Positions 11,726 to 15,232 of a DNA stretch of 64,000 nucleotides are shown piece by piece. How positions within the stretch are numbered: position 1 is the first letter of the stretch; each line of letters starts with the position of its first letter. A program made the translations under genes and the position numbers. The stretch comes from Longitalea arenae. GTDB taxonomy: Bacteria > Bacteroidota > Bacteroidia > Chitinophagales > Chitinophagaceae. Below the pieces are notes generated by a model, which saw nothing but the letters and a program-made list of their open reading frames with translations, was not told the DNA's origin and did no database searches. Location of the stretch: the NCBI RefSeq assembly GCF_016924755.1, contig NZ_JAFFJX010000002.1, positions 124,001 to 188,000 of the forward strand, written 5' to 3'.

Positions 11726-12007
11726 TCAAGGTTTTTTTTTACCTCTTTTGTCGTTACCGAAATGCTGCGTGTGCGCCAGTGAAAAGATCGTCTTATAATC
11801 TACATCCAACAGATCACTGATCTTGTATAATTCAGCTAACGTAAACTGTTCAACGTTGGTGATCAAACGCGTCATCCGGTTATTGTTGGTACCCAGGTCG
11901 TGAGCCATTATAGTTTTAGGAACATGGGTAAAGATTTCCTTGAATTCGGATATATGTTTCCCCTCAATCAATATTTTTACAGCTTTATATCGTGGATCTT
12001 TTTCCAT
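11726..12007 (-). CDS. small helix-turn-helix (XRE-like) DNA-binding protein
   Basis: A 93-residue protein with a Cro/CI-like helix-turn-helix across residues 25-75 (I-F-T-H-V-P-K-T-I-M-A-H-D-L-G, then R-M-T-R-L-I-T-N, then L-A-E-L-Y-K-I-S-D-L-L-D-V-D). The C-terminus is short and basic (K-R-G-K-K-K-P). It has no sensor domain. Similar small HTH proteins are common in Bacteroidota. It is divergent from the umuD-umuC cassette, with 305 bases between them holding the operator-like dyads, so it is a candidate regulator of that cassette; this link is inference from position. Confidence 0.7.
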   Translation of the reverse strand: MEKDPRYKAVKILIEGKHISEFKEIFTHVPKTIMAHDLGTNNNRMTRLITNVEQFTLAELYKISDLLDVDYKTIFSLAHTQHFGNDKRGKKKP

Positions 12008-12255
12008 GTATCAAAGAAAAAAACAAATTCGAATTCAAATTGCATAAAGGATGCATTGTACTTTTTTTGTTATAAGCTGAACTTTTTTCTGCTGCGTTTA
12101 TAACTAAATTCATTACGATCGGTACAGTGATCACCTGGCCTGCTATTGTTACCAAAACCGCTCAGCATCTGCATTTTATCGACCTCGCTCCCTTGCATGC
12201 GTTTCCTGGAAATGAAAGCGGAATCCCAAAATCATAAAGTTTTCCACTAAAATCA

Positions 12256-12296
12256 TTAGTACAAATTTACTAATAATCTTAGTATTTTTGTACTGC
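12256..12296 (+). promoter_or_regulatory. tandem operator-like dyads overlapping the umuD promoter
   Basis: Two copies of the same dyad stand 23 bases apart: TTAGTA-N6-TACTAA at 12256-12273 and TTAGTA-N6-TACTGC at 12279-12296. The second contains TATTTTTG (12283-12290), a full match to the Bacteroidota -7 element TAnnTTTG, followed 22 bases later by the umuD start. A repressor bound here would block the promoter directly, as LexA does at SOS genes. No good -33 TTTG is visible; the first dyad occupies that region. The repressor may be LexA (not in this window) or the neighbouring HTH protein. Confidence 0.6.
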
Positions 12297-12312: not shown

Positions 12313-12690
12313 ATGGGCTTTCCGTCTCCGGCAAAAGATTACCAGGAGGATGTAATTGAATTGTCGAAATACCTGGTGCAGCATCCTACCGCTACCTTTT
12401 ATTTCAGGGTGTCGGGCGATAGTATGATCAATGCCTGTATGCCACATGGTTCCCTGCTGGTGGTCGACCGGTCCATAAAACCCGCCAGTGGTATGATCGT
12501 ACTGGCCGTGGTAAGTGGCGAATTTACCGTGCGCCGCCTGGTGCAAACCCGCAAGTCGCTGGTGCTCCATGCCGAGAACCCGGTTTACAAACCATTGGTA
12601 GTCACAGAAGAAATGAATATGCAGGTCTGGGGCGTTGTAACCGCCGTGATAGTAAAGTATAAATATGATACAAATGATCGCGTTGGTTGA
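12313..12690 (+). CDS. umuD: UmuD'-like protein, pre-truncated, catalytic Lys replaced by Arg
   Basis: A 125-residue S24/LexA-family protein, the partner of UmuC in translesion polymerase V. It aligns without gaps to the cleaved form of E. coli UmuD: it starts M-G-F-P-S-P-A, where E. coli UmuD is cut between Cys24 and Gly25 to expose G-F-P-S-P-A. The frame upstream has no ATG before the stop at 12280-12282, so the regulatory arm is absent. The nucleophile Ser is kept (S-G-D-S-M, Ser37), but the catalytic Lys97 of E. coli is Arg74 here (G-E-F-T-V-R-R-L). It therefore appears constitutively in the active UmuD' form and unable to self-cleave. It overlaps the umuC start by 17 bases. Confidence 0.9.
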   Translation: MGFPSPAKDYQEDVIELSKYLVQHPTATFYFRVSGDSMINACMPHGSLLVVDRSIKPASGMIVLAVVSGEFTVRRLVQTRKSLVLHAENPVYKPLVVTEEMNMQVWGVVTAVIVKYKYDTNDRVG

Positions 12691-13936
12691 TTGTAATAAT
12701 TTCTATGCATCATGTGAACGGCTTTTTCAGCCCAGGTTGCAAAACAGGCCCATTGTCGTGCTGAGCAACAACGATGGTTGTGTCATTGCCCGGTCCGACG
12801 AGGCCAAGGAACTGGGCATTGAAATGGGCGCTCCCTCCTTCCTTATTGAGCAGGTGCTGCAACAGCACAATGTATCGGTTTTTTCTTCCAACTATACCTT
12901 GTATGGCGATCTGAGCGACCGGGTGATGACCACCTTGTCGCAATTCTGCGACCAGGTAGAAGTGTATTCCATTGATGAAGCATTTCTCGATCTCTCGGCT
13001 TTCCGTCATTTTAACCTGGCAGACTATGCACAAACCATCCGCAGCACGGTCATGCAGCATACCGGCATTCCGGTTTCCATTGGCATTGCGCCTTCCAAAA
13101 CGCTGGCAAAAATGGCCAACCGCCTGGTAAAAAAAAGGAACAAACAACTCGGGGTGTATGCCATCGATACGGCGGAGAAAATGCAGTTTGCCCTGCAAAA
13201 TACCCAGGTAAAAGACATCTGGGGTATCGGCCCGCAGTATACGAAATTGCTTAACAGGAACGGGTTTATCACTGCCTGGGATCTGTCACGGGCTCCGGAA
13301 GAATGGATCCGGAAGAACCTTTCGGTTGTGGGGCAGCGAATGTATAACGAGCTCAAAGGCATCTCCTGCATTTCTTTTGAAGAAATGCCACCCAAAAAGA
13401 AAATGGTTTGCGTAGCGCGGGGATTCGGCAAAGTATTGAGCGAAAAGCAGGAAGTAATGGAAGCGCTGGCTAATTTCACCGCCATGGTTGCGGCTAAGCT
13501 GCGCAGTGAGCAGCTGGTCACCAGCGCCATCCAGATCTTTGTGCAAACCAATGCCCACCGAAGCCAGGAGCCACAGTATTTCCGCTCACTCACCATGCGC
13601 CTGCCTGTGCCTACCAACAGCACCAATGAACTGATTGCACATGCCCGGCACGCACTGGAAACCATTTACCGGCCGGGCTATAATTACAACAAGACGGGTT
13701 GCACCGCCATGGAACTGTCTCCGGCCACGGAAGTGCAAAGCAATATTTTTGACCAGCAGAACAGGGCACGGAATTCGCAGCTCATGCAGGTGCTGGATGT
13801 GGTGAACAGATCGTTTGGAAAAAATACCGTGCGCTTTGCCCTGCAGGGATTTGGCACCCGCTGGAAATTGCGCCAGTTGAAACTATCGCCCTGTTATACC
13901 ACCCGCATCGATGAAGTATTGACCATAAAGATCTGA
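12674..13936 (+). CDS. umuC: Y-family translesion DNA polymerase V catalytic subunit
   Basis: A 420-residue UmuC (E. coli UmuC has 422). It copies past damaged bases with low fidelity, together with UmuD'2 and RecA. Visible motifs: metal-binding Asp6 in A-L-V-D-C-N-N-F-Y-A-S-C-E, the palm motif S-I-D-E-A-F-L-D-L-S with Asp101/Glu102, a helix-hairpin-helix (I-W-G-I-G-P-Q-Y), and the UmuC-specific C-terminal region. I chose ATG 12674 because family members begin M-x-A-L-x-D; ATG 12665 is a possible alternative. The 17-base overlap with umuD implies coupled translation. Confidence 0.93.
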   Translation: MIALVDCNNFYASCERLFQPRLQNRPIVVLSNNDGCVIARSDEAKELGIEMGAPSFLIEQVLQQHNVSVFSSNYTLYGDLSDRVMTTLSQFCDQVEVYSIDEAFLDLSAFRHFNLADYAQTIRSTVMQHTGIPVSIGIAPSKTLAKMANRLVKKRNKQLGVYAIDTAEKMQFALQNTQVKDIWGIGPQYTKLLNRNGFITAWDLSRAPEEWIRKNLSVVGQRMYNELKGISCISFEEMPPKKKMVCVARGFGKVLSEKQEVMEALANFTAMVAAKLRSEQLVTSAIQIFVQTNAHRSQEPQYFRSLTMRLPVPTNSTNELIAHARHALETIYRPGYNYNKTGCTAMELSPATEVQSNIFDQQNRARNSQLMQVLDVVNRSFGKNTVRFALQGFGTRWKLRQLKLSPCYTTRIDEVLTIKI

Positions 13937-13939
13937 GCC

Positions 13940-14431
13940 ATGCACAACCCCTTCGTTCTACTTACCACCCGGTTGCTTGAATCGCTCATTAAAGCGGGTA
14001 ATAGTTTTTTTGTGCGGCAAACCTACATGCGTGGTAAAAACCCACTCGATCCGCTTAACAAAGCCGCTTTCTTATTTACTCACTACACTGATTACAGCCG
14101 GGCAAAAACGCATTATGATACGCTCGATAAGGACCCCAACCGATTTCTATATAATGTGAATGAAGCGGAACACTACGAAAAATTATTCATTGCAGCGAGC
14201 CAGCCGGAAGGATATCATATTTACAGTCCGCTGGTGCAACAGCCCTGGAAACCCACACCGGTCATTGCCGCGCGCATCCGCACTTATATTAATGAAAAAT
14301 TAAATTGGGCAGTGAGCAGGAATGAGCAGGTAAAAGCGGATCTTTTCATTCAGTTTGGCGAACTTTTCATTACCTTAAAGTGTGGGATCCATGAGGTGAA
14401 ATTACCGCTTGCTGACATTGAAAATCTTTGA
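13940..14431 (+). CDS. unrecognised protein in the SOS-like cassette
   Basis: A 163-residue protein I do not recognise. It starts 3 bases after the umuC stop, and its stop shares bases with the region just before the next start (14435), so it is co-transcribed and probably translationally coupled with both. The sequence is soluble: an amphipathic first 30 residues (L-L-T-T-R-L-L-E-S-L-I-K-A-G), a Tyr/His-rich middle (F-T-H-Y-T-D-Y-S-R-A-K-T-H-Y), and a C-terminal part with alternating hydrophobic strands (K-A-D-L-F-I-Q-F, E-L-F-I-T-L-K). There is no signal peptide, membrane segment or obvious nucleic-acid motif. Its place between a translesion polymerase and an abasic-site protein suggests a DNA-damage role. 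Confidence 0.75.
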   Translation: MHNPFVLLTTRLLESLIKAGNSFFVRQTYMRGKNPLDPLNKAAFLFTHYTDYSRAKTHYDTLDKDPNRFLYNVNEAEHYEKLFIAASQPEGYHIYSPLVQQPWKPTPVIAARIRTYINEKLNWAVSRNEQVKADLFIQFGELFITLKCGIHEVKLPLADIENL

Positions 14432-14434
14432 TGC

Positions 14435-15232
14435 ATGTGTTACGATATATCTTTTACTTCGAATATTCAGTTAATTACAGATTACCTGCCCGACCTGGTG
14501 ATCGATCCGCAGCTATCGATCGATTTTGACCTCACCATACACGTGCAGGCACAGGCTTACCGCAAATACCCGGTCATCATTTTTGAAGACGCCCGGTACA
14601 AGCTAAAACCCTTTGAATGGGGCGTGATCGCCGATTACATGAACACGCCTGAGAAAGTGAAACAAAGCCGCCAGTATATGTGCAATGCGCAGAGCGAAAA
14701 GATCATCAATGATAAAAAATCATTCTGGCGCAGGATCCGCTCTAAAAGATGTCTTATTCCGGTGAACGGCATTTATGAACATCGTGAAATAAAAGGCTGG
14801 AAGAATAAAGTGCCGTATTATGTGCATTTGAAAGACAGGCCCTTATTCTGTATTCCCGGTTTATATCATTATTCCCCCATTCCTGATGTAGAGACCGGCG
14901 AAATAAAAGGCACCTTCACACTTATAACCCGCGCCGCCAATTCCGTCATGCGGCAGATCCACAACGGCGGGCCGAATGTATTCCGCATGCCCATGTTCCT
15001 GCCGAAAGAACTTGAGATAAAATGGTTACTGCCCGACTTAACCGATGAAGAAATGCAAGAGATCCTCGATTTTGAAATGCCTGCTGAAGCGTTGGATTAC
15101 TGGCCGGTATTTACCATCCGTTCTACCAAACCCCGCCCCGATAACCTGGAGAAAACAGCGCCCTATGCGTGGCCCAATCTGCCACCACTGGGCATTGATG
15201 AAAGTACGGAGCAAAAAAGCCTGTTCTCATAG
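14435..15232 (+). CDS. yedK: SRAP-domain abasic-site protein (YedK/HMCES family)
   Basis: A 265-residue SOS-response-associated peptidase-fold protein. After Met removal, Cys2 forms a thiazolidine crosslink with abasic sites in single-stranded DNA, shielding them from cleavage and error-prone bypass. All active-site residues are present: M-C at the start, Asn84 in C-N-A-Q-S-E, Glu115 in N-G-I-Y-E-H, and His176 in Q-I-H-N-G-G. The second ATG (14435) is chosen over the ATG at 14431 because it puts Cys at position 2 in the correct frame. Last gene of the umuD-umuC cassette, the natural partner to lesion bypass. Confidence 0.92.
   Translation: MCYDISFTSNIQLITDYLPDLVIDPQLSIDFDLTIHVQAQAYRKYPVIIFEDARYKLKPFEWGVIADYMNTPEKVKQSRQYMCNAQSEKIINDKKSFWRRIRSKRCLIPVNGIYEHREIKGWKNKVPYYVHLKDRPLFCIPGLYHYSPIPDVETGEIKGTFTLITRAANSVMRQIHNGGPNVFRMPMFLPKELEIKWLLPDLTDEEMQEILDFEMPAEALDYWPVFTIRSTKPRPDNLEKTAPYAWPNLPPLGIDESTEQKSLFS

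Follow-up and report, generated by a model that had tools for sequence, protein, structure and literature searches.

A umuDC operon of Longitalea arenae encodes UmuD directly in its UmuD' form, with arginine at the place of the catalytic lysine

The umuDC cassette and its arm-less UmuD

The stretch of DNA analysed here (64 kb in all, called the window below) belongs to a genome close to Longitalea luteola and Niastella, in the Chitinophagaceae. It includes a umuDC-X-SRAP cassette whose genes lie on the + strand. The first of these, a umuD-type gene at 12313-12690, encodes a protein of 125 aa which starts with MGFPSPAKDY. It is followed by umuC (12665-13936), which overlaps it by 26 nt, or by 17 nt when counted from the ATG at 12674. 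The umuC product carries PF00817, PF11799 and PF13438. Its catalytic acidic residues are retained, and so are a clamp motif (QSNIF in place of QLNLF), the segment that aligns with E. coli residues 361-376 and the UmuD'-binding tail. In E. coli, region 361-376 contacts RecA and the tail binds UmuD' (PMC6511836). This tail is conserved in the window UmuC, which the UmuD of the window may bind and activate as a dimer. The third gene (13940-14431) encodes a conserved protein of 163 aa with no match in Pfam, NCBIfam or PHROGs, nor in a plasmid search. Its family is present in 10/10 genomes of the genus and in four other genera of Chitinophagaceae, and adjoins SRAP in the window and at loci L215 and L020. 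At L020 and L021, umuD is found directly 5' of the gene of this family with no umuC between them (SRAP then follows in L020). The SRAP gene of the window (14435-15232) encodes an SOS response associated peptidase of the HMCES/YedK type (PF02586, 2.7e-32) with the Met-Cys start typical of that family.

The S24 C-terminal domain of the first gene's product is closer to UmuD than to LexA. The protein passes the thresholds of PF00717 and of NF007621 (translesion polymerase V autoproteolytic subunit; 143.1 bits against a cut-off of 110), while the lexA model stays under its own cut-off. UmuD' is its top match among solved structures by sequence: with phmmer, residues 2-113 align with UmuD' (1umu) at E=4.8e-27, interrupted only by a gap of one residue that follows the position of Lys97. 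A fold model built on an alignment of relatives also has UmuD' (1ay9) as its best match, with an rmsd of 1.3 A and a TM score by target of 0.89.

E. coli UmuD is cut between Cys24 and Gly25, and Met1 of the window protein stands at the place of Cys24. The umuD frame is closed 30 nt 5' of the start by a TAG (12280-12282, + strand) which is conserved in the genus. No ATG, GTG or TTG occurs in frame between this stop and 12313; the intervening codons read YFCTAIKQLF, in which a rare ATC start would add five residues only. The gene therefore cannot encode an N-terminal arm, and the Cys/Ala-Gly scissile bond that the arm carries in self-cleaving UmuD is absent. The Ser/Lys dyad is also incomplete. 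The equivalent of the catalytic Ser60 is retained as Ser37 (AGT, 12421-12423, + strand), but that of Lys97 is Arg74 (CGC, 12532-12534, + strand). A substitute lysine was looked for: K8, K56, K93, K115 and K117 are fixed in the genus and none is invariant across arm-less proteins. We have very high confidence in this gene structure and in the loss of self-cleavage, and RecA-stimulated processing in cis is impossible for the protein. A previous, sequence-only reading of this DNA had described the closed frame without ATG and the retained serine with Arg74, and had concluded that both halves of the gate on UmuD, the arm and the dyad, are gone. The frame, the residues and the comparisons within the genus and on the tree given below bear this out. 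Its gap-free alignment with cleaved UmuD holds from the MGFPSPA start through the dyad but not beyond, given the gap after the Lys97 position.

The promoter region carries two SOS boxes of the form CTAA-N5-TTAG, a distal one, CTAAAATCATTAG (12247-12259, + strand), and a proximal one, CTAATAATCTTAG (12270-12282, + strand). These are the only two exact copies in the window, for which the mean expected by chance is 0.87, and they are conserved at -66 and -43 in 9/9 genus genomes. The last three bases of the proximal box are the in-frame TAG, so that the operator occupies bases which an arm would need. More generally, such a box lies within 200 bp of 75% of all UmuD loci, compared to 0.6% after shuffling. 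Among the non-canonical LexA proteins that Bacteroidetes use, one group, typical of Chitinophagaceae, has CTAA-N5-TTAG as its binding motif (Sanchez-Osuna et al., PMC8565304). The genome has an S24 repressor (L201) with an HTH and an S24 domain, an Ala-Ala-Gly site, the serine and lysine and a box of its own at -16; with these features, it is a Bacteroidota-type LexA that is intact and cleavable, and a candidate binder of both boxes. The same genome encodes four S24 paralogues beyond LexA (L199, L200, L202 and L204; frames of ~224-236 aa), related HTH proteins whose S24-type domain is weak and which have no CTAA-N5-TTAG box. A divergently transcribed gene for a 93-aa HTH protein of the Cro/C1 type (11726-12007), just below the Pfam cut-off for HTH_26, faces the umuDC promoter.

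A gene that has lost its usual start and a catalytic residue, in a genome with another umuDC, resembles a decaying copy, or one in which a frameshift or sequencing error hides the arm, or whose product is unused. This is extremely improbable and is already refuted by the comparative data. An error at the stop or an upstream start was looked for, and the same start, closing TAG, serine and arginine occur in 9/9 genomes of the genus in which the gene is present; no match to it came from a tenth, which is 61% complete. Values of dN/dS among the genus genomes are ~0.02-0.11, and the gene is under purifying selection. With a conserved promoter in addition, a sequencing error, frameshift or pseudogene is ruled out, as is an arm hidden in another frame, since the upstream space is taken by the two boxes. 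The umuC gene and the cassette are intact, and the same arrangement has arisen independently in other genera.

Recurrence of arm loss and arginine at residue 97

UmuD loci were gathered from the genus, family, order and phylum, giving 174 distinct domains which were sorted according to the length of arm that they could have and to their residues 60 and 97. In this Bacteroidota survey, Ser60 is present in all 97 UmuD that have Lys97, and Arg97 in all 15 that are strictly arm-less. Arg97 also occurs in L036 and L189, whose arms are very short and whose site is Thr-Gly, and in an odd orphan (L040). Two others with slightly longer short arms, at 12 residues, and an intact Ala-Gly bond (L057 and L145) keep the lysine. 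E. coli UmuD starting from residue 8 is cleaved, and a version truncated to residue 18 is not (PMC5342242), so that an arm-length limit for cleavage is expected within this range.

The tree of UmuD by itself is poorly resolved. With UmuD and UmuC together, the arm-less proteins branch at separate positions between armed ones; a single origin of these forms was rejected on this tree (p-AU 1.5e-6), and holding the non-Niastella forms together by themselves gave p 0.0044. When arm loss and the change from lysine to arginine were mapped, as the sequence-only reading had suggested, they were found to change jointly: the wider set has seven arm changes and seven changes at residue 97, three of these origins (L040, L189 and L021+L114) being placed from UmuD alone and on long branches. 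Independent pairs on supported branches go in the same direction in 6/6 cases (sign test p=0.031), with an arm cut-off of 11 residues that was chosen after L057 and L145 had been seen to have lysine at 12; with a looser cut-off, these two become exceptions to the pairing. Arm loss with K97R thus recurs in several lineages and is not peculiar to the window protein, and we have high confidence that co-loss of the arm and of Lys97 is a repeated evolutionary event.

The simplest account of the arginine would be a neutral consequence of arm loss, in which the lysine drifts and its replacement has no role. Such drift is expected under relaxed constraint; the serine is also lost in 4/18 arm-less proteins, and phage proteins of the HumD type have K, R, A or M at this residue. 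However, the replacement in Bacteroidota is always arginine, in 18/18 arm-less proteins and in 59/59 members of an armed clade described below. The codons vary (CGC, CGG, CGT, CGA, AGG and AGA) with the amino acid fixed. If arginine is taken at the BLOSUM rate, the chance of obtaining it in all seven independent changes is ~1e-6; with a generous rate of 0.4, it is 0.002. We therefore think drift very unlikely. Arginine seems to be kept for charge or packing, as if a charge at residue 97 were wanted and a proton-accepting amine were not. Arginine may allow weak cleavage at high pH, as in LexA K156R. In an arm-less protein, such cleavage might be relevant only in trans because there is no arm. 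A literature search on LexA K156R or on UmuD of Chitinophagaceae returned nothing except the paper on Bacteroidetes LexA.

A second, armed UmuD

The genome has a second umuDC (locus L002, G000:C11:475588-475926), whose UmuD has an arm and has lost both the serine and the lysine: it reads GDAM for GDSM (S60A) and MLVRRL where E. coli has FTVKKL (K97R), and has no FPSP cleavage-site motif. It falls into a clade of Chitinophagaceae proteins which is fully supported (59 members sampled) and whose conserved arm has a fixed length of ~28-29 residues (Y.GSK.F.QQDV.TANATGFGAAA). AlphaFold gave no confident placement of this arm, with a pLDDT <50 for nearly all of residues 1-51. Arg97 is found in 59/59 members, Ala60 in 53/59 and Ser60 in 6/59; since the six with Ser60 already have Arg97, the lysine may have gone first. 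A CTAA-N5-TTAG box lies ahead of 56/59 of the genes. From their residues, these proteins are expected to stay permanently uncleaved. This clade is the most unusual thing that we found, although it lies outside the window coordinates, and it goes against the E. coli rule by which UmuD must be processed to support mutagenic synthesis. An armed UmuD that cannot be cleaved, UmuD(K97A), keeps UmuC at the membrane in E. coli and is a strong inhibitor of mutagenesis there (PMC4552617), and the armed clade presumably works differently.

As the window UmuD has lost the arm and the lysine and L002 the serine and the lysine, no UmuD of this genome should cleave itself. It is conceivable that the arm-less protein serves mainly as a subunit-exchange partner of the armed, uncleavable one, the ratio of the two products replacing the conversion of UmuD to UmuD' and K97R being selected to stop cutting in trans. 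Both genes occur in 9/9 genus genomes of good completeness and both forms in four further genomes (L025/L087, L034/L083, L032/L078 and L042/L098), with CTAA-N5-TTAG boxes at both promoters. E. coli UmuD and UmuD' prefer to form a heterodimer, and the active site of a short-armed UmuD cuts an S60A partner in trans (PMC5342242). However, the two UmuD proteins are only 40% identical and are each encoded with a umuC of their own, and several genes of the arm-less type are found in genomes without a second UmuD above threshold. The second UmuD, without a Cys/Ala-Gly FPSP site, may also resist even an active partner. We consider exchange as the main role unlikely.

A broader proposal, which we offer tentatively as a possibility, is that many Chitinophagaceae do without UmuD self-cleavage and have Pol V in two fixed states. 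One would be a pre-cut UmuD' (arm gone, K97R) and the other a permanently armed UmuD (K97R and usually S60A) which must activate or restrain its UmuC unprocessed. Where both are present, the balance of the two genes may replace the cleavage switch.

Control of the operon and comparison with known systems

Our preferred reading as a whole, which we hold with good though not complete confidence, is that the gene at 12313 makes active UmuD' directly under LexA control; homology and the promoter make this function likely. On DNA damage, RecA filaments would trigger self-cleavage of the Bacteroidota-type LexA and the umuDC-X-SRAP cassette would be derepressed. The UmuD' dimers would bind UmuC at once to give Pol V without the delay of the RecA-dependent conversion of UmuD to UmuD', and this Pol V may still need RecA-ATP. 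With the arm gone, the dyad would be left without a target in cis and the lysine no longer kept; the arginine would retain the charge, should not act as a general base and should also block the cutting in trans of a partner's arm. Against this, the serine is retained in 14/18 arm-less proteins, so that the dyad is not eroding freely.

The sequence-only reading had proposed that control here should rest on transcription alone. The damage signal can indeed be read at the promoter: with boxes at umuD and a LexA which has a cleavage site and dyad, the RecA signal is readable by LexA and by neither UmuD. "Alone" is nevertheless too strong, since UmuC keeps its RecA-, clamp- and UmuD'-binding regions, and activation by RecA-ATP as well as proteolysis may remain. 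E. coli Pol V also needs RecA and ATP (PMC4001326). What is lost is the RecA-dependent step from UmuD to UmuD'.

Compared to E. coli UmuD and UmuD', the window protein shares the fold, the start residue of the processed form, the umuC operon, SOS-type control and the nucleophilic serine. It differs in being encoded without the 24-residue arm, in having arginine for the catalytic lysine and in an operator of a different LexA type. It combines two changes made separately in E. coli laboratory constructs, which either encode UmuD' directly or carry UmuD(K97A), a form that is not convertible to UmuD' (PMC4552617). In the present case the two changes occur naturally, in combination and repeatedly, with arginine rather than alanine in place of the lysine. 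UmuDAb of Acinetobacter is another natural departure from the E. coli plan. It is described as having a DNA-binding N-terminal domain and acting as a repressor (PMC11332147, PMC4807011), whereas in the window protein the N-terminus and cleavage are lost.

Proteins born as UmuD' are already known from phages. P1 HumD, N15 gp26 and phiKO2 gp23 are encoded directly at UmuD' size, with Met or Val followed by GFPSPA, and the P1 HumD start, MGFPSPA, is that of the window protein. In P1 and phiKO2, a LexA site precedes the start by ~20 bases, and HumD is annotated as complementing E. coli UmuD'. In contrast to the window gene, which is chromosomal, in a umuC operon and of a recurrent type, these are phage genes without a umuC partner, and the P1, N15 and phiKO2 proteins keep Lys97. 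In three relatives of these phage proteins the residue is R, A or M, and most are without the serine. The window protein falls below the cut-off of the HumD equivalog NF051876 (83.6 against 120 bits) and represents another subfamily. In the survey, the UmuD genes L040, L114 and L189 have no nearby umuC, a HumD-like layout. What the present case adds to HumD is a chromosomal gene with umuC, with K97R, and repeated; we found no description of arm-less or uncleavable UmuD in Bacteroidota in the open-access literature.

Textbooks give the self-cleavage of UmuD as the post-translational brake on mutagenic Pol V. In these bacteria, the brake has been removed several times in evolution, each time with loss of both the arm and the catalytic lysine but with retention of the SOS operator and the polymerase, which shows which layers of the control of mutagenic DNA copying are dispensable. 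Natural UmuD' proteins with their own UmuC are usable for reconstitution, and they make possible a direct test of whether the cleavage delay matters for the mutation rate.
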